Source: Paludibacter sp.
GTDB lineage: Bacteria > Bacteroidota > Bacteroidia > Bacteroidales > Paludibacteraceae
DNA length: 35,192 nt
Direction: 5' to 3'
NCBI GenBank assembly: GCA_013426815.1
Contig: JACDZH010000010.1
Span: 1 to 35,192, forward strand
The notes under the pieces are model-generated. The model did not search any database, was not told the DNA's origin, and saw only the letters and a program-made list of their open reading frames with translations. Below, in pieces: positions 1 to 29,394 of this stretch. How positions within the stretch are numbered: the first letter of the stretch is position 1; the number at the start of each line of letters is the position of its first letter. Made by a program: the position numbers and the translations under genes.

Positions 1-55
1 TCACCTCAATTATCAATTGAATTTTAAAATTCTTATCCCGAACTCAGGTTAATAC

Positions 56-1719
56 TTACTTAAAACGATTCCCTTTCGCCTATTCATTTGCAATATAACC
101 ACCTACCCTGTATCCCATAGCAATGATGGTAAGAGCAGGATTAAACCCACCATTTGTAACATTTAAACTGCCATCATCCACAAAAAGATTAAGTGTTTCA
201 TGTTCTCTGCCATAAGCATCGGTTACAGAAGTTTTCGGGTCGTTACCCATTCGGAAGGTACCTGTCTTATGTTATCCTCCACTTACACCTTTGCCTTTTC
301 CTGCGGCTTGCCAGGTTAATTCAGCTCCTGCTTCAATAAATAATTCTACTGATTTTGCAGCAATAAAGTTTGAAGCCTTTATATCCGCATCATGTCGTTC
401 GCCCAATAGGCGGGCAACAGGAATTCCCCAAAAGTCTTTTACCGGAGGGTTAATAGTTACTCTTGCATTAAAGTTTGGAATTTCCTGTACCGGTACTAAG
501 ACTCTGGATATCCTTTTAAAAATAGTGTCGTTGAAATTCCTTGTGTTTTAACCCCCAGACAGGTTCACCTTTAGGGCGAAATTCGGAAAACTGATAGGAT
601 GGCATTATTAAAAAATCGTTGGTAAGCAATGCACCTCCAATTATACCATCATTGTGATGATTAAAGTCACAAACTGCAAATGAACCTCCGGGTCCAAAAT
701 CTTCATAAATTTCGTCTTTAAAAAGACCAAAAGCTCCGGAATAACAATGTCTCTGTAGATTTCGTCCTACCCAATCGTTTCCATTCCCAATACCATTGGG
801 GAAAAATTTAGATTTAGAATTCAACAACAAACGGGCAGTTTCGATGGCTGATGCTGAAACAATTATGACATCGGCGTTTGAGTTTGCTGTTTATAATCTG
901 CATCAAAATAACACATTCCTTAAATTTTCCCCTTATCATTTACAAGAATTTCACTCACAACTGAATATACGAGCAGATCACAATTCCCTGTTTCAATGGC
1001 TTTTGGAATGATTGTATTAAGAGTCCCTGCTTTTGCATATACCGGACAAGCATGACCTACACACGTACGCATTCGATAGCAAGCAGGACGATTGTCGTAT
1101 GGAACAGAATTACGAAGCATTGTAACAGTGAAAGGATACCAAACCAAACGTAAAGCGGCATCATTTAAAATTTGCGCCTCTTTGTTGTGCGAAAATGGTG
1201 GCAAATGAAGTGGTATTTTCCGGGTTGGTAAAAAAGATTTTGACTATAATCGCCCGAAACTCCCATTTCCCACTCAGCCTTTTCGTAAAAAGGTTCAAGA
1301 TCAGCATAACTTATGGTCCAATCTGCCATAGTTGTGCCTTCCACTCCACCATAAACAGATTTAAATTTAAAATCTTCTTCCATAAATCGCCAGGCCATGT
1401 CACCATAGCTCACAGTACCCGAACCTACACGTGCAGCCAAAGCATTAAATCCACCCTCCGATGGACGAATAATCTGTGTACAACCATCCTTATTCTCAAT
1501 TACCATGCAATGTCTTTCATCATCAGGATCATAAGCTTTACCAAGTGCTCTATTGGTACGTTGAGCACGTAATTCATCGTTATAAATATCATCGTATTTA
1601 GCCAATCCACCACGTTCTAATAATACCACCGAAAGTCAGGCAAAACTTAGCTCTTTAGCAGCTGCTCCGCCACCTGCACCTGCACCCACAACTATGACAT
1701 TAACATGTTTAATTTTCAT
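56..1719 (-). pseudogene. Decayed second copy of GMC-family dehydrogenase flavoprotein
   Basis: This is a ruined paralogue of the intact GMC oxidoreductase at 2871-4529, alignable from the start (MKIKHVN versus MKNKHVN) to the end (KGNRFK). The three ORF-track pieces at 1165-1629, 920-1204 and 516-830 are successive parts of it in different frames. Lesions seen: an in-frame TGA in place of the glycine of FAGLSVV (1636-1638), frameshifts near 1200, near 900 and near 520, a TAA where the intact copy has the Ala before HQAGTCRMG, and a TAG in place of the tryptophan of NEWAKGN near the end. The FAD-binding GxGxxG stretch is still readable. It lies 34 bp downstream of the cytochrome gene, so the arrangement is GMC, cytochrome, dead GMC. 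It cannot make a working enzyme. Confidence 0.92.
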
Positions 1720-1753
1720 GAATTGACCAAGTATATCGTTACTAGATAACTAC

Positions 1754-2870: not shown

Positions 2871-4529
2871 TTACTTAAAACGATTCCCTTTAGCCCACTC
2901 ATTTGCTATATAACCACCTACCCTGTATCCCAAAGCAATGATGGTAAGAGCAGGATTAAAACCACCGTTCGTTACATTTAAACCACCATCGGCTACAAAA
3001 AGATTCGGTGTTTCATGAACTCTGCCAAAAGGATCGGTAACAGATTTTTTCGGGTCGTTACCCATTCGGCAAGTTCCTGCCTGATGAGCTCCACCACTTA
3101 CACCTTTTCCTTTGCTTGCTGTTTGCCATGTAAATTCAGCACCTGCTTCTAAAAGCCATTTTTCTGCTTTTTCTGCAATAAAATTAGCCCCTTTCATATC
3201 TGCGTCGAGTCTTTCACCCGATAAACGTGCAACAGGAATACCCCAAAAATCTTTTACCGAAGGGTCAACAGTTACTCTTGAATTAAAGTTTGGCATTTCC
3301 TGCAAAGGTCCCATTACTCTTGCCACTTTTTTAAAATTATTTCGTTGAAATTCTTTGTGTTTTAATCCCCAGTACGGTTCACCTTTTGGACGAATTTCAG
3401 AGAACTGATAAGGCATTCGAATAAACTCATTGGCAAGCAATGCTCCTCCAACAATTCCTTCGTTGTGGTGATTAAAGTCGCATAAAGCAATGGAAGCTCC
3501 CGGACCAAAATCATCATATATTTCATCTTTAAAAATTCCATAAGCTCCTGTATATAAATGCCCCTGAAGATTACGCCCTACCCAATCGTTTCCATTTCCA
3601 ATACCATTCGGGAAAAATTTGGATTTAGAATTCAAGAGTAAACGGGCAGTTTCAATTGCTGATGCTGAGACGATTAAGACATCAGCAGATTGAGTTTGCT
3701 GTTTATTGTCTGCATCAAAATAATTTACCCCGTAAATTTTACCATTATCATTTACAAGAATTTCGCTGACAAGCGAGTTAATACGTAATTCACAGTTCCC
3801 TGTTTCAATGGCTTTTGGAATAACTGTATTATGTGAGCCTGCTTTTGCATTTACCGGACAAGCAAACCCTACACATGTTCGCATCCGATAGCATGCTGGA
3901 CGATTATCGTAAGGAACAGAATTCCTAAGCATGGGAATTGGAAATGGATGCCAACCCAAACGTAAAGCCGCATCTTTTAATATTAACGCTTCCTTATTAT
4001 GTGAAAAAGGTGGCATTGGAAGTGGTTTATTTCGGGGTGGCGAAAAAGGATTCTGGGTTTCATCGCCTGATACACCCATCTCCCACTCAGCCTTTTCGTA
4101 ACAGGGTTCAAGATCTGAATAACTTATTGGCCAATCGGATAAAGATGACCCTTCTACTGCACCGTAAATAGATTTTAATTTAAAATCCTCTTCCATAAAT
4201 CGCCAGGCCATTGCACCATAGCTCACAGTACCTGAACCAACGCAAGCAGCCACTTCGCTGAATCCACCATCTGATGGTCGAATAATTTTTGTACTGCCAT
4301 CTTTATTCTCAATCACCCTGCAATGTCTTGCGTCATCAGGTCCGTAAGCTTGTCCTAATGCCCTTATGCGTTGCGAATGTAATTCATCATCATAAACATC
4401 ATCATATTTTGCCCATCCACCTCGCTCAAATAGCACTACCGACAGTCCGGCAAAACTAAGTTCTTTTGCAACTGCTCCCCCACCTGCTCCGGCACCTATA
4501 ACTATTGCATTTACATGTTTGTTTTTCAT
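2871..4529 (-). CDS. GMC-family FAD-dependent dehydrogenase (large subunit)
   Basis: A 552-residue flavoprotein of the glucose-methanol-choline oxidoreductase family, close to the large subunits of gluconate 2-dehydrogenase and glucoside 3-dehydrogenase. The FAD-binding motif GAGAGG is at residues 12-17. The C-terminal substrate domain carries HQAGTCRMG (about 482-490) and GGFNPALT (Asn about 525), which supply the usual His/Asn catalytic pair. I chose the ATG at 4529; the ORF-track start at 4550 is a TTG, and the decayed paralogue begins at the equivalent ATG. There is no signal peptide, so the protein would be exported by hitch-hiking on the Tat-signal small subunit encoded upstream. Likely reaction: oxidation of a sugar hydroxyl to a ketone, with electrons going to the multihaem cytochrome. 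The substrate is not determinable here. Confidence 0.92.
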   Translation of the reverse strand: MKNKHVNAIVIGAGAGGGAVAKELSFAGLSVVLFERGGWAKYDDVYDDELHSQRIRALGQAYGPDDARHCRVIENKDGSTKIIRPSDGGFSEVAACVGSGTVSYGAMAWRFMEEDFKLKSIYGAVEGSSLSDWPISYSDLEPCYEKAEWEMGVSGDETQNPFSPPRNKPLPMPPFSHNKEALILKDAALRLGWHPFPIPMLRNSVPYDNRPACYRMRTCVGFACPVNAKAGSHNTVIPKAIETGNCELRINSLVSEILVNDNGKIYGVNYFDADNKQQTQSADVLIVSASAIETARLLLNSKSKFFPNGIGNGNDWVGRNLQGHLYTGAYGIFKDEIYDDFGPGASIALCDFNHHNEGIVGGALLANEFIRMPYQFSEIRPKGEPYWGLKHKEFQRNNFKKVARVMGPLQEMPNFNSRVTVDPSVKDFWGIPVARLSGERLDADMKGANFIAEKAEKWLLEAGAEFTWQTASKGKGVSGGAHQAGTCRMGNDPKKSVTDPFGRVHETPNLFVADGGLNVTNGGFNPALTIIALGYRVGGYIANEWAKGNRFK

Positions 4530-4540
4530 AATTTTAAAAT

Positions 4541-4565
4541 TTGCCCCCAAGCCCCCGAACAGGGA
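4541..4565. repeat. C-rich repeat, copy 3, in front of the GMC gene
   Basis: TTGCCCCCAAGCCCCCGAACAGGGA stands out in AT-rich DNA. It resembles the two G/C-run repeats at 8680-8707 and 8795-8826, though the match is looser. It ends 12 bp upstream of the GMC start codon, inside the 134-bp gap after the small-subunit gene. Confidence 0.5.
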
Positions 4566-9739: not shown

Positions 9740-12100
9740 TTACAATTTCATTATTTTGATTACATTTTTTTCATTTTTGCCAATAAGGTTCAAAACATGA
9801 ATTCCCACAGGTAAAAAGTCAAGATTATCAAAGGTTTGATTCGAGTTGCCCTTAATCTCTTTTTCGTATAGTTTCACTCCAAGATTGGAGAATATTTCTA
9901 TTTTTTCGAAGCTACCATCAGAGTTAAATGAAAACTGATTAGAAATTGGATTTGGAAAAATCTTAACATTATTGTTATTAATTATTGGAAATGCAGTTGT
10001 TTGATTTCGAATAAACATACATAGAACTTTATTCCGTTCAAATAAAGTCTTGGCATTTCCTACTGTTTCGTTAATAGCTGGAGCTGATGAAGTGGATGTA
10101 TCTAATGACTTAACTAAAGCAACCATCACATTTTGAGAGTTCACTACATCAACTATTGGTCTGTCCTCAATTGTTTTAGTTACTCCAGTTACACTATAAA
10201 GACGAATATTTTCACTATCGGTTATTTTTACGGGTGTATTAAAATCATTTCCACTTCCACTACTTACAGTACCCGCTTCTACTTTAAAATAATAGATATT
10301 TATGTTTCGTGCATTCTTAATTTCACTCATTGGATTTGTATTTCCCCGTTCTACATTATATGAATATATGGATAATGGTGCAATATTCCCACCAATAGTT
10401 TTGATCTTTGGCATACCATAAAATCTCCCTCCTCCATTACCTGAAAATGAAAGTGAACCCTCACAAAACACATAAGCACCCTTACCTGCTTTCCAGGATA
10501 TTTCTAAGGGTTTAAGAAACGAAATACTTGAAGTTGCATTAACATCATCGGCAGTAGTGACAGAATTTTTTATTTCTGTATATATTTTCGGATTCCCAAA
10601 TAAGTGCTGATTTAGACCTAAAGTTAAGACTTCGTTTACAATATAAGTCCCTTTGGGAACAAAAACCTTATCGCCTGCAGCTAAAGCATCTTTAAACGCC
10701 TGTGTATCATTTGCAAAATTATTTCCTAAGGCTCCATAATCTCTTACATTTACTACACCTGGTTCATCAAAGGCTGGAACAGGAGTCCAATGTTTTCGTT
10801 GTATTGCTAAGATATCAGGCTCTGAACTATCCTCTGAATTGAATATTGTGGATGTTGAAGTATTGCCATTAATCATATTTAATGAACCTTCTTTACAAAA
10901 AGAATATTCTTTCACCAAAGTCCATTTCGAAGGGTCAATTGCGGTAACATCAACAGTACTGAATTTATTAAATCCTTTCAAATAAGTATTTTCAAGAATT
11001 ATGTTCTCCCCTGTTGTTTTGGTTTTGGCAAAGACTGAATTTTGGCTAATTTTTGCTGCACAATCCACTAAACATAACCCACCATAGGTTCTGTAAGCAT
11101 TCGATAAATCAAAAGCAATTCCTGTTGTTGCCGGTTCAAAATACGAACCTGTAAATACCCATGCCAAATCGGAATATTGGTTATAAACACACGCTTTAGT
11201 TTGTCCTGTAAATTTACAACCTGCAAGTAATGGAAATCGATATAAATTTTCAATTTTCAAACCATATTCACCTCCGTCTACTTCAATATTGTAAGTTCCG
11301 CCACCTTGTCCGGGACAATTATTAAACCCTGCGTGAGCATTTGTTGCATATACTTTAGCATCCATCAAATAACATCCCTGTGAACCACTAAAACGTAATC
11401 CAATAGCACCTGGATTACCACCCAATTCAATATCGATACCTTTGTAAGCACAGTTAAAGAGTATGTTCGGCTGTTCAATACCCCAATTTGGAGTAGCAAC
11501 TAAACAAGGGTTGTTAGGGACAACTGTTCCTTCACGGTCGTCACGAGTTTGTGCCCAAATTTTTATTACGGGTTTTGGGCTTGTAGAAGATTGAAAACCA
11601 TCAGCACCCTGTTTTAAATGAATTATTGGACGGCCATTTTTATTTGAACCGATTAATACAATCTTATCTGAAGTATTTTGCCAGTAATGCTGTGTTTTAT
11701 TGTCTCCATCCATGTACTTACCGCAAGTATCTTCAAGTTTTCCCTGCATACCACCTTCTATAGGAAGTTTGTATACCGGTATTTCGCAGCTTAATGTATT
11801 ACTTATCAGGTAATGTCCACTTGGAAAGAAACAAGCTTTCTTTTGTGTTCGCGCATCAATTATAGCTTGCTGAAGTGCTTCAGTGCAATCAGTGTGTCCA
11901 GTAGGGTCGGCAAAGTAAGGCGACGCTGTAACATCGAGCAATCCGTATGCAGCTAAATCTACAACATCCGCTGTAACATTAACAGACTTCATCTGTGAAA
12001 AAGCAATTAAATTTGAAAATAAACAAAAATTACAAATCAAAGTATATTTCAAGAATGAATTGATTTTGATTTTTTTTATTTTGAATTTAAAAATAATCAT
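9740..12100 (-). CDS. Secreted protein with two pectin-lyase-fold modules and T9SS tail
   Basis: A 786-residue secreted protein. The N-terminus has a basic stretch and a hydrophobic signal (KYTLICNFCLFSNLIAFS). Two modules follow that resemble the pectate-lyase superfamily / right-handed beta-helix family (Pectate_lyase_3 type). The first begins near DLAAYGLLDVTASPYFADPTG, the second near NVRDYGALGNNFANDTQAF with FVPKGTYIV. The last 70 or so residues (IFPNPISNQFSFNSDGSFEKIEIFSN...) are a type A T9SS sorting domain, so the product goes to the cell surface. No catalytic residues can be assigned by eye; lyase or glycosidase activity is an inference from fold. It is the first gene of the left-hand run and carries the conserved regulatory module 41 bp upstream. 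Confidence 0.85.
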   Translation of the reverse strand: MIIFKFKIKKIKINSFLKYTLICNFCLFSNLIAFSQMKSVNVTADVVDLAAYGLLDVTASPYFADPTGHTDCTEALQQAIIDARTQKKACFFPSGHYLISNTLSCEIPVYKLPIEGGMQGKLEDTCGKYMDGDNKTQHYWQNTSDKIVLIGSNKNGRPIIHLKQGADGFQSSTSPKPVIKIWAQTRDDREGTVVPNNPCLVATPNWGIEQPNILFNCAYKGIDIELGGNPGAIGLRFSGSQGCYLMDAKVYATNAHAGFNNCPGQGGGTYNIEVDGGEYGLKIENLYRFPLLAGCKFTGQTKACVYNQYSDLAWVFTGSYFEPATTGIAFDLSNAYRTYGGLCLVDCAAKISQNSVFAKTKTTGENIILENTYLKGFNKFSTVDVTAIDPSKWTLVKEYSFCKEGSLNMINGNTSTSTIFNSEDSSEPDILAIQRKHWTPVPAFDEPGVVNVRDYGALGNNFANDTQAFKDALAAGDKVFVPKGTYIVNEVLTLGLNQHLFGNPKIYTEIKNSVTTADDVNATSSISFLKPLEISWKAGKGAYVFCEGSLSFSGNGGGRFYGMPKIKTIGGNIAPLSIYSYNVERGNTNPMSEIKNARNINIYYFKVEAGTVSSGSGNDFNTPVKITDSENIRLYSVTGVTKTIEDRPIVDVVNSQNVMVALVKSLDTSTSSAPAINETVGNAKTLFERNKVLCMFIRNQTTAFPIINNNNVKIFPNPISNQFSFNSDGSFEKIEIFSNLGVKLYEKEIKGNSNQTFDNLDFLPVGIHVLNLIGKNEKNVIKIMKL

Positions 12101-12140: not shown

Positions 12141-12195
12141 TAAGTCAAAAAAGTATACTTATGTGGACAAGAATAAATATGTTATAAAACATAAA
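12141..12195 (-). promoter_or_regulatory. Conserved regulon module, copy A
   Basis: Read toward the pectin-lyase-fold gene: TGTTTTATAACA (12180-12191), 10 bp, TGTCCACA (12162-12169), 14 bp, TGACTTA (12141-12147), then 40 bp to the ATG. The dyad here is TATGTT-TTAT-AACATA. Spacing is identical in copies B, C and D. Confidence 0.85.
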
Positions 12196-12561: not shown

Positions 12562-14976
12562 TTAAAATAAAACAAATTTATAGACAAAATCGGCATGAGA
12601 TTGAGACTGGATTTTCAAAAAATATATACCATTTGGAATTTTATGAAGTCTCATTTCACTTTCATTTTTTGTACTGGCAATAACCCTTCCATACATATCA
12701 TATAGGTTCATTTCACATTGTAAAATAGTTTCGTCCGAATTAACTCGAAGTATTTTCTCAGAGCGATTCAACAAAACATTAATTTTTGAATCCTGAATTT
12801 TTGAATCCTGAATTTTTGAATCCAGATTTTTTGAATCCAGAATTTTAGAATCCTGATTTGCTTTCAAAATACTTGTTGTTTTTTTCTTAAAAACAGCAGA
12901 ACATAATCTCCACTTTGGAATAGTCCATAAATAGCTATCACCTGGTTTAACATTAACTGATGATACTAATGTTTTCCCTTTATATAAATCTAAAACATAC
13001 ATCTTTAATGGCACTTTTAAACTAAGTTCAACATTTGATTCCGTTGTATCAATTGCAAACACTGCAATAGATTCATTTTGAGCTTTCCAGGTATTATGAA
13101 TTGCACCAGTACCTGATGAAACAATTGATTTAAGCAAACGACCATACATCAGATAATCTTTAGCATGTGTGTCGTTCATCGATTCATAATAATCTATTAA
13201 AACACTATCAGTTGATTTAGGTTCTTGGACTGTTGAATTCCAAAAAGCTATACTATTCATTTGTCCGTAAATAATTGAAGCGCATTGCTCTACATCTTTT
13301 GAAGTATTTGCATCACATAAACCGTATATTGTAGGAATATAATCGTGATAAACATATACAAAAAGTGGAATCTGATTTTTTTCAGAAGAAACTATCTTCC
13401 AATTACGTGCCTGATAACCACTTAAAATCATATTGTAAATCTCACAAGGCCATTCTTTTGTCAATGAAAAATTTTCAATATTTTTAGTTTTTGCTTTTTT
13501 TATTATTTCTTTATAGGTTTTAATCATTGTATCGGTTTCCCATCTACCATAAGGTACTGGATGACCGTGTAGTGTATTATAACAAGGTCCATTACCACAC
13601 ATAAATTGATCAGCATCGTTATGTATAGTAGTTACACCTCTTTCGAAAAGTCCATCAGCTACATCTGGTAACAAATTTTGTCCTCTACTAGTTCCTCTAC
13701 ATAAAAAATTGTCCGTTCTAACCTTATGTACATATACGTATAAACTTTCATTAATTTGAGTTCGGCAAAGTTCATTGCCATTATTATCATTGAAGTATTT
13801 TTCTAGGTTTTCGCTTATTTTTATATTACCTTCAATATACTTTGTCCAATGAAAACTTTCAATAAACCCAGCAGTAATTATTCCCACTTTCTTCAATTCT
13901 GAATTTAAAACTTCAAATTTACTATCTGAATTTTTAGTTGGTAAATAATCTATACCTACCCAATCACCATATTTTTCCCAACCAATTGGCCGATAAATAA
14001 TATTGGTCTTATACTTACCTGCCCAACATTTGAGTCGAACCCTCAAATTATATATATTATCTTCTAAGTAAAGTTCCGAACTGATAACTAAGGGTGTTTT
14101 GTGATAATTTTCAGGCACAGCTTTTCTATTTATGAGAAGAGTATCCGACCAGGATTGATTAATTGCCCAATTACGGTATACTTCTGCTGCATCCTCCCAG
14201 CTGTTTCCACATAATCCAATCATGGTTTGATAACTAGCATTCCAAGTTCTGCTATCGTAAGGCATACAATGACGAACAGCCATGCTAATTTCGTTATCGC
14301 TGTTATTTAAAAAACCAAACGATTTTACGTGCCCTACGGTATCATTTGTTCTAAGTAAAACGCCGGCTGAATCTGACAAAATAGCGGACATTTGTAATCC
14401 TTGTTTTGCAGGATAAAAATTTGTATATTTTGACCAATTAGTTTCCACCGATTGCATACGACCTTCATACATGGGATCTACAAATAGTTTGGAAACATTG
14501 CTATTTAGAAGTTTCCTTGAGGTTCTGAAACGTGGAAAATCCACCCCACTAACAAGTGAATCATTATTTAACTCAACATTAATGTGTGAAATTATTTCAG
14601 CATTTGAACTCAATACGAATTTTACTATAACAGTTACATGAGGTTTTACATTAATAATGGATTGTTTCCATGTATATTCCAATTTAAATTTCAATTCATT
14701 TTCATTATGTGTCAAAACACTTAAAGTAAATTTTGAAGCGTCAATAGCTGGTTTTCTTGGTGTAAATTTAGTTTTGTCTACGTAACTTAATGCAAAAAAA
14801 CTCACTGAATCTTTAGAACTTGCTATATGTTGAACACACCTTTTTTTATCGTACAATGATGTTATATGTTTTCCATTAGTTTGAAAAAAAATAGAATTGT
14901 TTTCCAATGTATACGTCTCTGACAAAACTGAACATGTAAAGAAAAATAAAAAATTAAATAATACAATTTTTTTCAT
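12562..14976 (-). CDS. Secreted TIM-barrel glycosidase-like protein (DUF6259-like) with T9SS tail
   Basis: An 804-residue protein with signal peptide MKKIVLFNFLFFFTCSVLS. The N-terminal third looks like a beta-rich domain. The middle (about residues 260-640: NWAINQSWSDTLLINRKAVP, IIYRPIGWEKYGDWVGIDYLP, GVTTIHNDADQFMCGNG) resembles DUF6259-type glycoside-hydrolase-like barrels. Near the C-terminus is a linker of five 5-residue units (KILDS, KNLDS, KIQDS, KIQDS ...), encoded by 15-bp DNA repeats. A T9SS sorting domain ending in IPNGIYFLKIQSQ...YKFVLF follows. It lies 32 bp after the extended end of the sulfatase pseudogene, so it was probably co-transcribed from regulatory module B. The activity is not established. 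Confidence 0.75.
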   Translation of the reverse strand: MKKIVLFNFLFFFTCSVLSETYTLENNSIFFQTNGKHITSLYDKKRCVQHIASSKDSVSFFALSYVDKTKFTPRKPAIDASKFTLSVLTHNENELKFKLEYTWKQSIINVKPHVTVIVKFVLSSNAEIISHINVELNNDSLVSGVDFPRFRTSRKLLNSNVSKLFVDPMYEGRMQSVETNWSKYTNFYPAKQGLQMSAILSDSAGVLLRTNDTVGHVKSFGFLNNSDNEISMAVRHCMPYDSRTWNASYQTMIGLCGNSWEDAAEVYRNWAINQSWSDTLLINRKAVPENYHKTPLVISSELYLEDNIYNLRVRLKCWAGKYKTNIIYRPIGWEKYGDWVGIDYLPTKNSDSKFEVLNSELKKVGIITAGFIESFHWTKYIEGNIKISENLEKYFNDNNGNELCRTQINESLYVYVHKVRTDNFLCRGTSRGQNLLPDVADGLFERGVTTIHNDADQFMCGNGPCYNTLHGHPVPYGRWETDTMIKTYKEIIKKAKTKNIENFSLTKEWPCEIYNMILSGYQARNWKIVSSEKNQIPLFVYVYHDYIPTIYGLCDANTSKDVEQCASIIYGQMNSIAFWNSTVQEPKSTDSVLIDYYESMNDTHAKDYLMYGRLLKSIVSSGTGAIHNTWKAQNESIAVFAIDTTESNVELSLKVPLKMYVLDLYKGKTLVSSVNVKPGDSYLWTIPKWRLCSAVFKKKTTSILKANQDSKILDSKNLDSKIQDSKIQDSKINVLLNRSEKILRVNSDETILQCEMNLYDMYGRVIASTKNESEMRLHKIPNGIYFLKIQSQSHADFVYKFVLF
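12781..12855. repeat. Five tandem 15-bp repeats encoding a pentapeptide linker
   Basis: Five consecutive 15-bp units of the type AATTTTTGAATCCTG, the first two identical and the others differing at one or two bases. They are in frame in the minus-strand gene and encode DSKIQ/DSKIL-like pentapeptides just before the T9SS sorting domain. Confidence 0.9.
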
Positions 14977-15008: not shown

Positions 15009-16892
15009 TTATATTTTGCACTTCCGATTTGTATTTTTTACCTGAATGAATGCCAAAACAATACCATCAGGTCACGAAGAATCAATAAATATTTCAACCG
15101 CTTCGGTAATTTTACCCGATTTCCAAGGCACTTTTCCATTGACTGTTATCAATGAAACAGTTAAATCAGCATCAAACTCAAAAACATTGAGATATATTGT
15201 TCCAATGGCTGAGTTTGGATTTATAATGGTTGTATTGTTTTTTGTTTTTGGTAAACCTGTTGGCAATTTGCCAATTTTTTCAAATTCAAAATAGTTGATT
15301 GTAAAGCCACTTTTCGAAAACCGAAATTGTAAATATGTTTTATTACCATATTTAAGTGTTAGCGTATCACTAGTAATTGTTTGCCATTCTGGTGTAACGG
15401 GAACAGATATTGAAGTATTCGTTTGTTCATTCAAAGTTGCTTCAATTGTACCACCACTTTGGGTATTTAAAACCCAGGTTTGTAAAAAATATTTTCCGGG
15501 CATTATGGTGTCGGATATAAATGCAAGCCATTCGTTGGCTGTAGTAGAATTGACACAGAATCTACTTCCACCATCACTGGATGCATGAATATCAACAACT
15601 TCTGAATTTCTATATTTACCACCCGTGTTTGTCGAATTACTATCATGGTAGCCAACTCTTTTGCCACCTCTGACAAATTTTTCGGCATGCATCACATCAG
15701 GAATTTTATTTTTTCGAATTGGTGTGCAAGGTTCCAAATTGAGTTGAAACTTCAAACAGTCAGTCATATACGACATACAGTTTTTTATAAAAGCATAAAG
15801 CAGATTATTAACTAGTATTTCCCATTCCATATCATTTACACTATGGTCGAATAATTCCTCACCGGAAGTAGGTTGTATATATCGAAAATATTCATTACGC
15901 ACTGATTGACCATCCTGTATAGTCCACGTCAAGGAACTCTGTTTGTTATCGGGGTTCATTAACAATGGAAGTAAACTTTCGCCCTCATTGTTCGTATTAT
16001 CAGGCAATCCGCAAAGTTCTGTAATAGTGGGGTATAAATCTATAGGTACTTTGCATAGACAATTCCCCTTAATATTCCCAGGTACTTTTAAAACTAAGGA
16101 CATTCTACAAGCCTCTTTCCATGGTGTAAATTTTTTATACCGAAGCTTTTCACCTAAATGCCAACCATGATCACCCCAAAAAATTACGATTGTATTTTCG
16201 GCATATTTACTATTTCGCAATGCATCAAGAAGAACCCCAACACAAGTATCTGTATAGTTTATACAGTCTAAATATGCTTGTAATGCAGTTTTTCGTTTAA
16301 AGTATTGTAAGGTTTTCTGATAATCAACAGATGGTTTTAAATTTCCGTGAATATCATTTAAAACATTATCGTTAATGGAAGGTAAAATCATGTAATCTTC
16401 CTGAAATTTATCAAAAAATTGCTGAAGCACAAACAAAGGCAGATGTGGACTTAAAAAACCACATGCAATCATAAAAGGTTTGTCATGTTCTTTGTTCAGT
16501 TCGTAAGCTTCCCACATTGCATTACCAAAGTCTGGCGTTTCTTTGAGTGTATTGCATGTTGAACCCCAATCAAAATTTGAATCGCCTGATGTGTTTAGAA
16601 TCCCATTTGCTCTGAAACATGTAATAAGCGAAGAAGGCGAAGGATTTGACAATACTGCAGAATAATTAGCCAGTTCGAAGACAACTCCTTCGGCTGCTAA
16701 TTTATCCATATTTAGAGTCTTGGTTTGCAGATGACTACCCAATAATCCAACATAGTAGTTTAAATCATCGACTGCAATAAAAAGTATATTATACGGTTTT
16801 TTTTTGGCAGATAGAACGCATATTGAATTTCCCAAAAAACCACCTAGAAGTTCTATCTGAAATCCTGTTGTGAAGTTGTGAGTGTGTTTCAT
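15009..16892 (-). pseudogene. Degenerate sulfatase with CBM6-like module and interrupted T9SS tail
   Basis: The sulfatase signature is clear (NILFIAVDDLN, QTKT, NMDKLAAEG, DHGWHLGEK), followed by a CBM6-like module (GYHDSNSTNTGGKYR, NEWLAF) and a T9SS-like end. The activation motif C/S-x-P-S-R-x-S-L-x-T-G reads SNPSPSSLITC, so the essential Arg and the Gly are lost. A block after RANGILN is missing compared with the family, and several usual prolines are changed (HLQ, TLN, VLQQ). The frame stops at TGA (15072-15074), but the same frame continues with PDGIVLAFIQVKNTN, the expected end of a sorting domain, to TAA at 15009. The ORF-track start is a TTG inside the regulatory module; I chose the ATG at 16892, although no good signal peptide remains. 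Best read as a dying gene. Confidence 0.8.
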
Positions 16893-16913
16893 TATCAACT
16901 TTTTTACTTGCAG

Positions 16914-16966
16914 TAAGTCATAAACAATTGACAATGTGGACAGATTAAAATGTGTTATAAAACATA
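16914..16966 (-). promoter_or_regulatory. Conserved regulon module, copy B
   Basis: Read toward the sulfatase: TGTTTTATAACA (16953-16964), 10 bp, TGTCCACA (16935-16942), 14 bp, TGACTTA (16914-16920), then 21 bp to the ATG at 16892. It also lies just past the stop of the permease gene on the same strand. Confidence 0.87.
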
Positions 16967-16973
16967 TTTTGTT

Positions 16974-18167
16974 TTATTTTCGCGGAATAAATCTTCGTAG
17001 CAGATCGTAATTTCTTCTTACATGGCATTTCGAACCACAGAATCCATCGTTGTTATATACCTTCCAATTGCATGTTCGGCATGGATTGACAATAAAATGT
17101 TTTGATTTTGAATAAATACCATATATAATTATTCCAAACAATATTATTCCAAAAGGCCAATGCCAAACTGGTATTTGAGGCGACATTCCCGTTGGATTTA
17201 TTCCTTCACCAAAAATTATTGGAACACAACATTGTTGTACAATCAATTCGCCCTGAACGCGGTAAGCATGGTATTGGTAATCGGGAAAAACAAGCTGGTC
17301 GGTTACTATACCTGCCACCAATGCCATAATAAAAAGCGATAAAGCGTAAAACACTGATGGTTTTAGTCCCATTGACCGACGGATAGCGTTTAATTCACCC
17401 AGATTAGTTCCAGGTCCGGCTATCATATAAGCAACGGCTGCCCCAGGAGAAGCTCCCAAGAGCAAAAGACCTTGCACAACCGGAATGGATGGAATACTAC
17501 AAGCATAAACCGGAATACCTAATAATATTACATAAAGAAGCGTGTAAATATCCTGTTGACCTAACCACGATGAAATCCATTCCATTGGTAGAAAAGTAAG
17601 TAATAATGCTGCAATGCTTAAACCAATAGTAATATCGACACTAACATCGGCGCCCAATTCGAAAAATGACCATTTAAGGGTTTTGAAAAACTTGTTTTTC
17701 GACTGTTTTTTTTCCTTGCCATCAACCATATATTCTTTCTTGCAACTTATACCTTTTTCATTGTCATTTGGAGATTTAAAAAGGCGATTGGCAATAAAAC
17801 CTATGGTGTACGATCCAACAACAGCTACAATAACAAATGTAAAAGTTAGTTTTAAACCCAAAAATGATAATGCAAGCGCAATTAATACAGGCGAAAGAAT
17901 GGGTGTAGAAATCATAAATGCAAATATATTGCCCATTGCTGCACCACTTCGGAACAACCCTATACCAAGTGGAATTGTACCACAAGAGCACAAAGGTAAA
18001 ATACTTCCAATGGTAACTGACTTTAAAAGTGCTAATGGAGATTTTTCACCCACCTGTTTTTGTAACACATTTTGAGGTACATAAAACTTGAGTATCCCTG
18101 CGATTAAAAACCCCAATACAATGTAAGGAGCTGATTCGAGTAAGGTATTGAATAGAGTGTTTAACAT
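16974..18167 (-). CDS. ArsP/SO_0444-type permease
   Basis: A 397-residue integral membrane protein of the DUF318/ArsP_1 permease family; members include proposed Cu/Zn efflux (SO_0444) and organoarsenical permeases. Family marks seen are ILPLCSCGTIPLGIGL (Cys60, Cys62) and YACSIPSIPVVQGLL. A cytosolic charged loop (about residues 145-165) separates the two membrane halves. After the last membrane segment comes a Cys-rich tail (CRTCNWKV..GFCGSKCH) that could bind metal. It starts 4 bp after the small membrane protein gene and ends the operon headed by the PhoD-like gene. Why a metal/oxyanion-type permease would share the polysaccharide regulon is unclear. The substrate is not known. Confidence 0.85.
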   Translation of the reverse strand: MLNTLFNTLLESAPYIVLGFLIAGILKFYVPQNVLQKQVGEKSPLALLKSVTIGSILPLCSCGTIPLGIGLFRSGAAMGNIFAFMISTPILSPVLIALALSFLGLKLTFTFVIVAVVGSYTIGFIANRLFKSPNDNEKGISCKKEYMVDGKEKKQSKNKFFKTLKWSFFELGADVSVDITIGLSIAALLLTFLPMEWISSWLGQQDIYTLLYVILLGIPVYACSIPSIPVVQGLLLLGASPGAAVAYMIAGPGTNLGELNAIRRSMGLKPSVFYALSLFIMALVAGIVTDQLVFPDYQYHAYRVQGELIVQQCCVPIIFGEGINPTGMSPQIPVWHWPFGIILFGIIIYGIYSKSKHFIVNPCRTCNWKVYNNDGFCGSKCHVRRNYDLLRRFIPRK

Positions 18168-18720: not shown

Positions 18721-20397
18721 CTATTTTAAAGGATCAATTTTCCAAGTGATATTCTGACCCGAACCGGATTGGCGTATAGTACGTGGCCAACCGGGCATCT
18801 GTTTTACACCGGCTTTGGTTACATCTGTAAACCTGTCCCAACTTTCGAATGTTACGCTTTTAGCTTTTTTATTGAATCGAACAATACCAAAACCTTCGCG
18901 AAGATTATCAGCTCCTTCTATGTTAGCATACGCATGCATAGTAATTCTATTTCCAAAGCCATCAAGATAGTCACCTGTAAATGGTAATGGATTTTTAGGT
19001 TCTTTGTTTTTTCCGGCTTTTTCATCCAAAGGATACCACCAACGTTTATAAACTGTATTTACTATAGCTGGTGCTACAAATGTAAAAGGTCCATCTTTGA
19101 AGTTATCAATACCGTTCTGAACTAAAGTTGCAATATGTTGATCACCAGCTAAATGCATAGCTCCGGCAGCCTTTATGGCACGTAAAGCTTCGTTTCGTCC
19201 TGTTTGAGGCCAGCTATTACAGTCGAGATCAGCTTGTAAGTAATTTTCAAATTCACCATGACGATGTGCAGAGCCCGCAAAGCCTGTTTGTGAAAGAACG
19301 CATTTCATAGAAACTCCTTTGTATTGTTTGCCCCATTCTTTGAGAAATTTAAGCTGACGTGAACCGAGTAATTCTAAACCAGGTAAATCAATCGATTTTG
19401 GATCGTATTCAGGATCACGTACATGGTCGGGACGCGGTCCTTGTTGTGGAATTTTGCCAGAGGGGCCACTTTTAAATTTGCGGTCCTCGATAATTGCAAA
19501 ATCGATGCCACCTATATTCATGCTTGTATAATAAACCCCAATACCTTGTTTAACAGGTGTCGGATCATACGCATCGGGCAAATGAGATGTTTGACAACGT
19601 TCCACCATTTTAACATATTCGTGATGATAAAAATAACCACCATCATTTCCTTTGTCTGTGGAAGCTATTTTACCACCCTCTCCCCAGAGATTACCCTGAC
19701 CAATATCATGATCATCGGGAATTGTTATGCAAGGACGATTACGAAACAACTCGCGAAACTGAAGACCAAAAAGAAGCCACGCTGCAGTATGTTCGGTATG
19801 ATCGTAACTTTGGTCTCCTGCAAAAAAAACTAAATCGGGATTAAAATAATTAACATTTCGTGTAAACTCAGCACGCTGATCACGCTCTCTATTTGAATTA
19901 CAATTTAGCGATGCCACTACAATTTCGTTTTTATAGGTTGGCTGTTTTCGTATCAAGCCTTGGTAAAATGCCTTTTGTCCATGTCGCAAACGGTACTTTA
20001 CATCTTTGGTTTCGTCCCATTTTTCAACTCTTAATAAAGCAGACCAGCCTAAGTCATTCACTTTCGATTTTGCCACTTCTACCCAATTACCGTTTTTAAA
20101 AAGTTCCAAACGTACAGTACGTGTTTCGTTTGGATACAATGGAAAAAGTTGTGCTGTCATTTTCATCACTTTGTTTTGAGTGGTGTAAATACCGAAACAA
20201 ATAACCTGATCCCGAGGTACATCTACATCAATGATTTTTTTTGGATTATTTTTTATCGATTTTGCAAGATTCCACCAATCGTTTATACAATAGGTATCAA
20301 TTTTTTCGAAAGGAGCCTTTACTGGAGGCGTACCATACTGTGCGTGAGTTGCACTAAAAATACTTAACAGAAGTACCGTAGAGATGAATGTTTTCAT
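18721..20397 (-). CDS. Exported PhoD-like metallophosphatase
   Basis: A 558-residue calcineurin-like/alkaline phosphatase D-type metallophosphoesterase. I start it at the ATG at 20397, which opens a clean signal peptide (MKTFISTVLLLSIFSATHAQ); the ORF-track start adds 20 residues before that signal. Metal-site motifs are FFAGDQSYDH (191-200), IPDDHD (226-231) and, near residue 425, LAGDQHIA. An N-terminal beta domain of about 150 residues precedes the catalytic domain, as in PhoD proteins. There is no T9SS tail, so it is probably periplasmic. It heads an operon with the small membrane protein and the permease, behind regulatory module C. The substrate (phosphodiester or monoester) is unknown. 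Confidence 0.87.
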   Translation of the reverse strand: MKTFISTVLLLSIFSATHAQYGTPPVKAPFEKIDTYCINDWWNLAKSIKNNPKKIIDVDVPRDQVICFGIYTTQNKVMKMTAQLFPLYPNETRTVRLELFKNGNWVEVAKSKVNDLGWSALLRVEKWDETKDVKYRLRHGQKAFYQGLIRKQPTYKNEIVVASLNCNSNRERDQRAEFTRNVNYFNPDLVFFAGDQSYDHTEHTAAWLLFGLQFRELFRNRPCITIPDDHDIGQGNLWGEGGKIASTDKGNDGGYFYHHEYVKMVERCQTSHLPDAYDPTPVKQGIGVYYTSMNIGGIDFAIIEDRKFKSGPSGKIPQQGPRPDHVRDPEYDPKSIDLPGLELLGSRQLKFLKEWGKQYKGVSMKCVLSQTGFAGSAHRHGEFENYLQADLDCNSWPQTGRNEALRAIKAAGAMHLAGDQHIATLVQNGIDNFKDGPFTFVAPAIVNTVYKRWWYPLDEKAGKNKEPKNPLPFTGDYLDGFGNRITMHAYANIEGADNLREGFGIVRFNKKAKSVTFESWDRFTDVTKAGVKQMPGWPRTIRQSGSGQNITWKIDPLK

Positions 20398-20482
20398 TTT
20401 AAACAAATATGAATAGTTTATACGATTTTTTAAAACATTAGTTAAAAAAAACTTCATAATTCAATTATCAAAAGAAAAACAG

Positions 20483-20537
20483 TAAGTCACAAATGATTGA
20501 AATTGTGGACAGCCTTAAATGTGTTATAAAACACATT
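20483..20537 (-). promoter_or_regulatory. Conserved regulon module, copy C
   Basis: Read toward the PhoD-like gene: perfect dyad AATGTGTTTTATAACACATT (20518-20537, 8-bp arms around TTAT), then TGTCCACA (20504-20511) and TGACTTA (20483-20489) with the same 10- and 14-bp spacers. The chosen ATG at 20397 would leave a leader of roughly 75 nt. Confidence 0.88.
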
Positions 20538-20579: not shown

Positions 20580-21161
20580 TCAACTAAATAGAAAAAGGAA
20601 TAAAATCGTTAAATGATCTATTTTTCCATCGAGCATCGATTTTAATGAACCGATAGCACGAAATACCAACTTACGAGCCGAATCATTTTTTAATTTCATA
20701 ATATTGCATATCTGCTCATATTCCATACTACACTCATAACGTAAATATATAATTTCTCGTTGACGCGCACTAAGACTACCTAAAGCATTTACAAGCATTT
20801 TTTCTTTTGAGCTCACTTTTTCTTTATCTGCCATCTCTTCTTCCAATGAAAAAACACCTTCAAATTTTAATGGATGTTCTTCAAAATAATCTATTTTATT
20901 GCTTTTGGTTAACTCTTTTATCATTGCATTTTTCAATGCTTTTAATAAATAATAGCGGATATTGTTGGTGGTATTCAAACGTTCTTTAGCCTGAATAATT
21001 TTTATAAAAACCTCCTGAATTGAGTCTTTAATAAACTCAGGGTCATTCTTAAAGCGTATTCCATATTGGAACATAGCATCAAAATGCTGAAAATAAATTT
21101 CAGACAGAGCACTTTTGTCGCCTGACTTAAACCTATCCCATATTTGTATATCTTCTTCCAA
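20580..21161 (-). CDS. ECF-type RNA polymerase sigma factor, orphan
   Basis: A 193-residue sigma-70 family protein of the extracytoplasmic-function group. Sigma region 2 spans about residues 20-85 (DSIQEVFIKI is the core-binding and -10-recognition part) and region 4 about 125-175 (LSARQREIIYLRY, then helix-turn-helix YEQICNIMKLKNDSARKLVFRAI). A short hydrophobic C-terminal tail (LTILFLFLF) is typical of Bacteroidota ECF factors. Such genes are usually followed by a FecR-type anti-sigma gene and SusC/SusD; none is present here. Regulatory module C begins 43 bp downstream of its stop. It has its own housekeeping-type promoter. It is the natural candidate to read the TGTCCACA-N14-TGACTTA elements in this window, but that is inference. 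Confidence 0.9.
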   Translation of the reverse strand: MEEDIQIWDRFKSGDKSALSEIYFQHFDAMFQYGIRFKNDPEFIKDSIQEVFIKIIQAKERLNTTNNIRYYLLKALKNAMIKELTKSNKIDYFEEHPLKFEGVFSLEEEMADKEKVSSKEKMLVNALGSLSARQREIIYLRYECSMEYEQICNIMKLKNDSARKLVFRAIGSLKSMLDGKIDHLTILFLFLFS

Positions 21162-24316: not shown

Positions 24317-26011
24317 TTAATTTTTGTCGTTAGGTCTTGCTAAAATGTAAGGACGGACTTGTGATTTGGCTTTTTTTTGTGTTTCAATATTCTTTACCAA
24401 TATTGTTGGGCTACAACACGAAACCGGTATACCCCCCGACTCAGCTCCACAAGTACCATTAAATACACCTTTATCTCCACCTGCCATATCAATTTGAGAA
24501 AACATGGATAATGGTGTTCCTATTAAATCTACCCCTCGAACTAATTCGTCAGCACGACCATCAACATAAACCCTGTAAACTAATGTTGGAGTCACATTAA
24601 AAGCACTTGGCATAAATCTTCCGGTAGTAGTAAACCCACCTGTAACTTCCTGAAACAAATAGCCATATTCAGCTTTTTGATTTTTAGCAAGTCGTATAAG
24701 TTCATCACGAAGTTCTTTTGTGGTTTTTGAATCTGATGTCTCAATCACCAAATTTGACTGACGCGAAATTGGTTGTAACCCCGCCTGGGCTCTACCATGA
24801 CCATTGGAAGCCGGAAAACCTTTGATAGGAGAACGTGACATTAGAAAATTTTTTAAAACACCATTTTCTACAATGTTCACTTTTTCTGCTTTTGTACCTT
24901 CATCGTCATATTGGTAGTAACCGTTTAGTGCAATACCATTGAAAGTTTTTTGAAGTGGATCACAATATACACTCAATGCTTTGGGCAAAATTAACTCGTT
25001 TACTTTTTTCTTGAAAGTTTGTCCATCAAATTCACTTTTCATCCGTTGTCCTTCAACTCTATGTCCAAAAATCTCGTGAAAAAATACGCCTGCAGCCTCT
25101 GCCGAAAGCAATGCCGTACCAGAAAAAGGATCGGCTACGGGTGCATTTTTTAATGCGGTTAAGTTTTTAACCTATAATTCAGTTTGCTTCATAATATCGT
25201 TGTCGGATGGTAGCAAATCAGGGCGATAAGAAAAAAAAGATTTGTATAAAGGCATTTCCATACCGTCTTTTGATTTAATAAATCCTTGAACATATAAATT
25301 TACAGACGTGTTGTTCTGAACAATATTATCACCCTTGCTGCTAACAAAATACTTGCGAAGTATTTCATAATTTATATTCGTTTCGCCATAAAATATGTCT
25401 TCATCTTTAAGAAATTCTGCCGAATACTTTCTTAATCGTTTTTCCCAATCTTTAGTATCAAATTTTATATAATCATTTTTTAATGGTTCTTCTTCAAATT
25501 TTAAAGGAGCATTCATAGTAAAATCTGCAGCTTTATCCTCTTCCTCAACTTTAATAGCAACATTGGTTTTTACTTTTGAGAATTTTGAAATTGCTTCTTG
25601 GTAAGCGTCATTTGTAGCTTTCCAAATCAAACTCTTTATTGCATCAGGATTATTTTCAGTTGATAGTTGAATTCTACTGAAGGATGTATAATCTGTTTTA
25701 TCTCTCAATTTGTGGAAATTATCTAACTGGGGAGTTCCAACTCGAATTGAAATTGTTAATGATCTGGTTTGGTTCGTTGATGAGTTTGTTAATGTCCCAA
25801 ATTGGGCATTTACTTGATAATTTTTGACATCATCGACTCTATAAGCAATATAGTAAACAGGTATTTCTTGTAGTTTTAAAACTTCAAATTCACGAGCTAC
25901 TTCTTCTTGCAAAATAAGTGATAATTTGTCTTGAGAAAAAATCTGATAACTGCAAATTGCAGAAAATAAAATAATTAAACTAAATGTTCTTCTTAGAATT
26001 CCTTTTTTCAT
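24317..26011 (-). pseudogene. Exported TldD-like metalloprotease split by an in-frame TAG
   Basis: Two ORF-track entries (25172-26011 and 24317-25111) are one protein. The first ends ..MKQTEL then TAG (25172-25174), and the same frame continues VKNLTALKNAPVADPFSGTALLSAEAAGVFFHEIFGH without any shift. The second ORF's listed start is a TTG inside this stretch, not a real start. The joined product (about 564 codons) has a signal peptide (MKKGILRRTFSLIILFSAICSYQIFS), an N-terminal TldD-like domain, the zinc motif HEIFGH, and a TldD C-terminal part ending CCSPTILVKNIE. Only one base separates it from an intact gene, so this is a young nonsense mutation, a sequencing error or suppressed translation. 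Confidence 0.82.
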
Positions 26012-26878: not shown

Positions 26879-26929
26879 TGTTTTACAACACATTTTTTAC
26901 TGTCCACAATTTATATATATTTTGACTTA
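26879..26929 (+). promoter_or_regulatory. Conserved regulon module, copy D
   Basis: TGTTTTACAACA (26879-26890), 10 bp, TGTCCACA (26901-26908), 14 bp, TGACTTA (26923-26929), then 62 bp to the ATG at 26992. This is the only copy on the plus strand, and it again faces its gene, so orientation tracks transcription. Confidence 0.87.
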
Positions 26930-26991: not shown

Positions 26992-29394
26992 ATGAAATCT
27001 CTTGACAAAAAATTAGTCTTTAATCGATTTGGATTTATCGTTTTCTTATTTTTCTTGTTACTGTCAGTAACAATATCGGCTCAAAAGTTGGATTGGTTAG
27101 AAGATCAACCCCCAACTGATAAAATCACTCGGGTTCAAACTAACAAGTTTACAAATCTCACAGGTTATCCCCGTAAGAGTACGGGATCTTTAAAGAAAGG
27201 CTTAACTGCTCAACAATTAGCTTGTTTTGATATCGTATGTCAGAAGCCTACATCAGCTACTGTTGCCGCTGCTCAGGCGATTAATCCCAATTTATCGTAT
27301 TTTCGCATTTTCAGTCCGCAAGCTTGGCAAGGTTTTAACGATGATATTAATGTAGAAACCAATGGATATCCTTTTAACACATCCGGACCATCAACAGCCA
27401 ACAATCAGGTATTTTCAGGCCATTGGGCATATCAGCCTTATACAACTTTAAGTGCAGGGATTACATCTGCAGCAGGAATCACTATGACTGTAAGTGCTAC
27501 TTCTAAAATCCAAGACAGTACTTATTGTGTGATCCGTCCTTCTATAAACGATTGGACAGATGCTGAACATGTATATGTGACTAAAATTGGTTCCATATTA
27601 ACACTTGATAAACGTGGGTACAAAAGTACAGCTAAGGCTTGGCCTGCAGGTTCGGTTATTGCTCAGCATACAACGGGAAACGGACCAGAAAAAGAATTAT
27701 TTGTTTACAATCTTTCAACAGAATGTCCGGAAGATAGCAATGGAAAGAAGATGAATGATGCTCTTTCAGCATGGTTAGTTAACCATTATGATAAGACAGG
27801 AACTGGTAGTCAGTTCAGTGCATCGGTGGATGGTATTCTATACGATGCAGACCCGATTGCTTTTGTTGATGGTGGTAGTATCAATACCCGTGATACAGAT
27901 TTGGATAATGATGGCGTGTCCGATTGGGGTTATGATATAGATGGCACTAATTTTTGGGGCGAAGGATTAGAATTATTTTATAAAAGAGTTAGAGATGGAA
28001 TTGATGACAAGGGACGAAACAATTTGGTGATATTAGGTGGTGTTGCAGAATCGTATGGCGTGTTACCAAATAACGGAGCTCAAATGGAAGCTGCTTGGTC
28101 GCATTTATTTGACGAAGATGGAGCTATAGCAGGTGCAAATGCTTATGATTTTGTTCCTTTTTATATGAGCGGTATGAAAGCACAAACAGGACATGGTTTT
28201 ATCGGACCACGTGTAACTGATGTACAGGGAAAAGAAGCAAGTGCATTATATCATGGTACTACCGGTCCATCTGATAATAGGGCAGTTCGTTTCTCATACG
28301 CTATGACAATGATGTTTAATGGCGCATGGTTTTCGAATCAAAATGGTTTCGGAGATGCTTTTCATTATTTCGACGAAGATGCTGTTTACACGCAAGGAGC
28401 AAATTATGGTAAGTCAGTTTTAATATCTAACACAACTGACATTCGGGCAAATAATAAATGGCTGGGTAATGCCAAAGGACAATACCAACGCATTTATGAT
28501 GCGATAACTTTTGCGACCGCTAATAATAAAATTACAAATGGAAATTTTGAATCTTCTATAAGTGGCTGGACAACAACAGCAGCAACTGTAACCCGTGTAA
28601 CTGATAAGAAACACGAAGGAAGTGCTTCGTTGCTGATAACCCCAACAATACCAAATACTAATTTACAATTATCTGGTTCAAAAGTAACTGCACCTGCTGT
28701 TTCTTTGACATTGAATCAGGAATACACATTGTGCTTTGCAGCATATAGTGATGCTCCAAGTCGCATTATCAGGGTTACTATCGGGTCACTTACATCAAAA
28801 TTATTTTTAACTCCGGGTTGGAGCAAACACGTATTATGTTGGAAAGAGAAAAATGGTGTAAGTTCAGGGTTAAAAATTGAAGTAGGAGCCGAACTTACTA
28901 AAGTGTGGATTGATCAACTCGGTTTATATACAGGTTCTGCAGATGTTTTACGTCGTGACTTTGATAATGGAATTATTTTGGCAAATGCAAGCTATTCACC
29001 AAAAACGTATGTGTTGGGTAAACCGTATAAACGTATTTTGGGTAATTTAGATGCTATAGTGAATAATGGTCAGGTAGTTACCGAAGTTACTATCCCTGCA
29101 CATGATGGATTGTTTTTAATAAATCAATCAACTACAGATGTAGAAGAGATTAATGAACTACAAATAACAGTTTATCCAAATCCATTTAATCATAATTTTA
29201 GTATTTTAATACCCAATATCGATGTTCGAAAATTAGATCTCTACAATAGTAATGGTGTGTTAATTTGTTCGCAAAACGTTGTAAACAAGTCAAGTGTAGA
29301 AGTTACTCAATTAGCAAATAGTCCTGTCGGAATCTATTTTGCTAAACTTTCAGGTTCAAACGGAATGAAATATATTAAAATTATTAAAAATTAA
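26992..29394 (+). CDS. Secreted glycoside-hydrolase-like protein with T9SS tail (paralogue 1)
   Basis: An 800-residue protein with signal peptide ending LLSVTISA-QKLDWLEDQP. The main domain (about 32-520) looks like a TIM-barrel glycosidase-like fold: NPNLSYFRIFSPQAW, DGILYDADPIAFVDGG, an EF-hand-like LDNDGVSDWGYDIDG, and VILGGVAESYGVLPNNG. It may belong to the GHL15-type hypothetical glycosidases, but I cannot confirm that. A CBM4/9-like beta domain (NGNFESSISGW..., about 515-655) and a short beta-sandwich (RRDFDNGIILANAS..) follow, then a T9SS sorting domain (VYPNPFNHNFSILIPN...IKIIKN). The next gene is a full-length paralogue 14 bp downstream. It is the first gene after module D. Confidence 0.8.
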   Translation: MKSLDKKLVFNRFGFIVFLFFLLLSVTISAQKLDWLEDQPPTDKITRVQTNKFTNLTGYPRKSTGSLKKGLTAQQLACFDIVCQKPTSATVAAAQAINPNLSYFRIFSPQAWQGFNDDINVETNGYPFNTSGPSTANNQVFSGHWAYQPYTTLSAGITSAAGITMTVSATSKIQDSTYCVIRPSINDWTDAEHVYVTKIGSILTLDKRGYKSTAKAWPAGSVIAQHTTGNGPEKELFVYNLSTECPEDSNGKKMNDALSAWLVNHYDKTGTGSQFSASVDGILYDADPIAFVDGGSINTRDTDLDNDGVSDWGYDIDGTNFWGEGLELFYKRVRDGIDDKGRNNLVILGGVAESYGVLPNNGAQMEAAWSHLFDEDGAIAGANAYDFVPFYMSGMKAQTGHGFIGPRVTDVQGKEASALYHGTTGPSDNRAVRFSYAMTMMFNGAWFSNQNGFGDAFHYFDEDAVYTQGANYGKSVLISNTTDIRANNKWLGNAKGQYQRIYDAITFATANNKITNGNFESSISGWTTTAATVTRVTDKKHEGSASLLITPTIPNTNLQLSGSKVTAPAVSLTLNQEYTLCFAAYSDAPSRIIRVTIGSLTSKLFLTPGWSKHVLCWKEKNGVSSGLKIEVGAELTKVWIDQLGLYTGSADVLRRDFDNGIILANASYSPKTYVLGKPYKRILGNLDAIVNNGQVVTEVTIPAHDGLFLINQSTTDVEEINELQITVYPNPFNHNFSILIPNIDVRKLDLYNSNGVLICSQNVVNKSSVEVTQLANSPVGIYFAKLSGSNGMKYIKIIKN

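Follow-up and report, generated by a model that had tools for sequence, protein, structure and literature searches.

Does an open reading frame that would pass for a sulfatase gene still encode a sulfatase, and if it does not, why has the frame stayed open? The question arises at a locus of Paludibacter sp. (Paludibacteraceae; assembly GCA_013426815.1), in a stretch of 35,192 nt (positions 1–35,192 of contig JACDZH010000010.1) that we refer to as the window. On its minus strand, a frame of 606 amino acids (15072..16892) runs from an ATG at 16892 to a TGA at 15072–15074, with an in-frame TTG at 16934, 5' of the ATG. The sulfatase profile PF00884 matches this frame at 86.5 bits (cut-off 25), mainly over the part that follows a deletion described below, and none of the NCBIfam equivalog cut-offs is reached. 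With such a Pfam score, automated annotation is very likely to apply the label "sulfatase," as the initial annotation of the locus had anticipated.

The Arg and Gly of the sulfatase active-site motif are part of the signature recognized by the formylglycine-generating machinery, and a second block, GK..H, contributes active-site residues. In the window copy, the first motif reads SNPSPSSLITC (residues 82–92; 16617..16649, minus strand), with Arg replaced by Pro at residue 86 and Gly by Cys at residue 92, and does not conform to [CS]-x-[PA]-[ST]-R-x4-[TS]-G; among 77 aligned homologs, the Arg is present in 75 and the Gly in all. The second motif has gone with an in-frame deletion (junction at 16605..16612, minus strand) that, in comparison with four homologs (L033, L132, L159, and L053), removed approximately 74–78 codons between FRA and NGI; the Lys of GK..H, found in 77/77 homologs, and the His, found in 76/77, are both gaps. 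Catalysis is excluded for practical purposes because both signatures are gone, and sulfatase activity is, to judge from the sequence, almost certainly absent. The metal-site motifs DD (AVDDLN, N-terminal) and DH (WGDHGWHLGEK, C-terminal) are kept.

The damage extends to all parts of the sulfatase domain, where constraint is relaxed and the positions hit include both catalytic and structural ones. The window copy departs from consensus at 30 of the 78 columns with conservation of 95% or more (20 substitutions and ten gaps), whereas full-length homologs do so at a median of one and a maximum of nine, a difference that in this alignment is far beyond chance. Conserved prolines are among the altered positions (for example, P to L at residue 60, P to V at 80, P to L at 156, and P to S at 265). 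Fourteen of the 20 substitutions can be reached from the consensus residue by one base change, compared with approximately 31% for random pairs, and in a 40-sequence tree, in which the exact sister is weakly supported, the terminal branch of the window copy is 0.97, versus 0.33 for the homolog L132. The initial annotation had described the missing Arg and Gly, the changed prolines, the deleted core block, and an inactive gene behind an open frame, and on each of these points our analysis agrees with it. The gene is almost certainly a dead copy that should not be counted as an active enzyme. The sulfated glycans on which a bacterium can feed are inferred from counts of its sulfatases, and motif checks are needed because a gene such as this passes domain-based annotation yet almost certainly cannot work.

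Homology to human iduronate-2-sulfatase (5fql, 6ioz) and to the arylsulfatase 6hhm spans the C-terminal half of the core; in contrast to these enzymes, the window copy retains the two metal-site motifs without the catalytic signature and GK..H. The S1 sulfatase of Phocaeicola plebeius DSM 17135 (L053) and a homolog from the same genus as the window (L159) have a Ser-type motif and share the core of the window copy, with 40%–43% identity over residues 94–370, but they keep SNASRAALL[ST]G and GK[IV]FH and have neither the deletion nor a CBM6 module. The domain order of the window copy (sulfatase, CBM_35_2/CBM6, and a presumed secretion tail) is that of two homologs with T9SS tails from another genome of the order (L134 and L152 of G232), in which, on alignment, CNPSR..SG and GKLYH are intact and the tails uninterrupted, unlike those of the window copy.

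The CBM6-like carbohydrate-binding module (residues 402–544; 15261..15689, minus strand) is recognized by CBM_35_2 at 31.0 bits (cut-off 23), whereas the CBM_6 score of 25.7 bits falls under the cut-off of 28.9; its best matches in the PDB, at 4e-14, are the CBM6 proteins 5g56 and 2y8k. The profile score of the module, 31 bits, is close to the 34 and 42 bits of intact homologs. Beyond it lies a presumed decayed T9SS sorting tail (15009..15191, minus strand) whose last 20 codons fall past the TGA. The initial annotation had seen there the end of a T9SS sorting domain, and PDGIVLAFIQVKN does follow the TGA directly and in frame, the full continuation reading PDGIVLAFIQVKNTNRKCKI to the next stop at 15009–15011. 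Curated T9SS models (PF18962, TIGR04183), which do match three neighboring genes, did not match the sulfatase tail with the TGA read through or masked. A local model based on six tails gives a collinear alignment that spans the TGA; among 985 shuffles, 8 reached as high a score (p ~0.01). It is thus plausible, although tentative, that the sequence across the TGA is a decayed T9SS sorting domain. Recoding of the stop codon (TGA readthrough) was considered and rejected because other genes of the window terminate at TGA and the stops found in frame within neighboring broken genes are TAG and TAA.

Is the loss peculiar to this gene? Searches of three overlapping sets (60 near relatives, 393 genomes from the order, and 358 from the family) found no ortholog closer than 49% identity to the window sulfatase, and hence none suitable for dN/dS. 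Had the same altered motif been conserved across species, a new non-catalytic role would have been suggested, as the initial annotation noted; no aligned relative, including those in the 77-homolog alignment, carries it, and a conserved family of non-catalytic pseudoenzymes was rejected on this ground. Eight other sulfatases of the same genome retain the Ser-type motif with its Arg (S-x-[PA]-S-R), and the genome encodes an anaerobic sulfatase maturase (anSME) on contig C471 (496 bits; cut-off 349). The loss is therefore specific to the window gene, and a lost maturation system was rejected as its cause. A search of the literature on sulfatase pseudogenes found no precedent.

The region upstream of the dead gene, described as still intact in the initial annotation, proved to be so. 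A promoter-like element (16911..16976, minus strand) comprises a dyad, ATGTTTTATAACACAT, followed by TGTCCACA-N14-TGACTTA (16914–16942), 22 nt before the ATG. This 66-nt element shares 85% identity with a copy (core at 20483..20511, minus strand) before a PhoD-like gene (18721–20457) and recurs before a pectate-lyase-like gene (9740–12100; core at 12141..12169, minus strand) and a T9SS-tailed gene (26992–29394; core at 26901..26929, plus strand). The core TGTCCACA-N14-TGACTTA thus occurs four times in the window, against none in 100 shuffles, and five times in the genome. A relaxed core yields 12 genome sites, all with a single spacing although 14–17 were permitted, compared with one site for a reversed control; the 47 congeners have zero to two each, which is the background level. 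The sites, which outside the window lie on contigs C142, C238, C289, C304, and C379, are found ahead of sulfatases (two on C238 and others on C289 and C304), of an alpha-galactosidase-like gene and an aldose-epimerase-like gene, and of T9SS-tailed and other genes; genes outside the window were named by sequence reading, except the sulfatases, which PF00884 matched. Nearly all sites have a dyad like ATGTTNTATAACAT approximately 10 nt upstream. Among the matches listed, literature on the TGTCCACA box was unrelated.

The spacing of the element looks like that of a sigma-factor promoter, and an extracytoplasmic function (ECF)-type sigma factor encoded in the window (20580..21161, minus strand; Sigma70_r2 and Sigma70_r4_2 over cut-off) is a candidate for its reader. 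The sigma factor gene adjoins approximately 1.4 kb devoid of long open reading frames, and no adjacent anti-sigma gene was seen. The element shared by these 12 sites offers a regulon of glycan-degradation genes in Paludibacter sp. that can be put to the test.

What the initial annotation leaves unexplained is how a frame with so much missense decay has stayed open. Taking the missense load as the excess of broken conserved columns (18%–23% of codons), we simulated the number of stop codons to be expected at such a load: seven to ten in 606 codons, whereas none is seen before codon 607. The chance of finding zero stops at this load is at most about 0.003 (0.3%), a figure that depends on distant homologs (49% identity or less) and on a gene picked for being open. 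Where columns are otherwise free of gaps, the window copy has three deletions, each of which preserves the frame. It is therefore likely that the frame is under some constraint to stay open.

Downstream on the same strand lies a glycosidase-like gene with a T9SS tail (12562..14976; DUF6259, 101 bits; Por_Secre_tail, 28.6 bits) that is apparently intact and is a candidate beneficiary of the sulfatase promoter. A scan of the minus strand between the sulfatase and this gene turned up no terminator-like site, and nothing near the start of the gene matches the Bacteroidota promoter consensus. Just before its T9SS tail, the gene also contains a 15-nt tandem repeat (12768–12859) encoding DSKIQ-type repeats.

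We consider it reasonably probable that the gene, having lost catalysis, decayed within an operon while its frame was kept by selection against polar mutations. The sulfatase frame would still be transcribed from the intact promoter element jointly with the downstream gene; nonsense and frameshift mutations would be weeded out because, through polarity, they would cut expression of or silence the glycosidase-like gene, while missense changes and in-frame deletions would be free to pile up. The sole stop, the TGA, stands at the very end of the frame, where polarity would be small. Taken jointly with this explanation, and with the same degree of confidence, the product of the gene would once have been a secreted S1 sulfatase of the iduronate-2-sulfatase-like kind, carrying a CBM6 module. 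Weighing against decay within an operon are the derivation of the load estimate from homologs of at most 49% identity, the selection of the gene as open, and the near-intact score of the CBM, which a retained binding role would explain too.

A plain neutral pseudogene, unconstrained, open by luck, and noticed since its frame survived, seems rather unlikely. It would fit the relaxation of constraint in all parts of the gene, and broken genes do occur nearby: the sequence at 1–1724 (minus strand), a second copy of the GMC-type oxidoreductase gene found at 2871–4550 (DNA blocks 80%–84% identical), is frameshifted and clearly a pseudogene. The expected stops and the in-frame nature of the deletions speak against it. 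A second sulfatase of the same genome (L174, positions 10374–11900 of contig C304) carries a frameshift and a TAA, which would also fit a neutral pseudogene. The pattern is nevertheless the opposite of that in the window: this ordinary pseudogene keeps its active-site motifs (SSPSRASILTG and GKWH) in a broken frame, whereas the window copy has lost its motif and kept its frame.

Retention of the protein for a non-catalytic role, such as glycan binding through the CBM6 module, strikes us as improbable. A stop-free frame, a CBM score near that of intact homologs, and an intact promoter element are what such a pseudoenzyme would be expected to have, but the altered state is found in no aligned relative, structural positions are broken along with catalytic ones, a segment of the core fold is deleted, and the TGA cuts the presumed secretion tail, which would keep the protein off the cell surface. 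Put more broadly, the open frame of the dead enzyme may itself be what is selected, as a translated spacer for the next gene of the operon or for a non-catalytic role of the protein; this we regard as a possibility of some substance, short of a conclusion. An assembly error or chimera is very improbable even in a fragmented draft of 499 contigs, since scattered single-base missense changes in an intact frame are unlike indel or joining errors and the codon composition of the frame resembles that of neighboring genes.

Overall, a dead gene is of an ordinary kind; what is unusual here is decay without loss of frame, and a species-specific promoter element of glycan-degradation genes came to light as a by-product. 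If operon polarity keeps such frames open, pseudogene finders based on stops and frameshifts miss a class of dead genes. If the frame of the dead enzyme is itself selected, bacterial genomes could hold dead enzymes that frame integrity does not distinguish from live ones.

Genome-wide gene decay was considered as a cause and rejected, because same-frame split pairs, at 4.5 per 100 kb versus 0–12.5 in congeners, are not clearly commoner in this genome. Two further genes of the window are interrupted. A TldD/PmbA-like gene (24317–26011, minus strand) is split by an in-frame TAG at 25172–25174 and has an intact HEIFGH motif, and a T9SS-tailed gene (31718–33991, plus strand) is split by an in-frame TAA at 33302–33304, with an ATG directly after the TAA.
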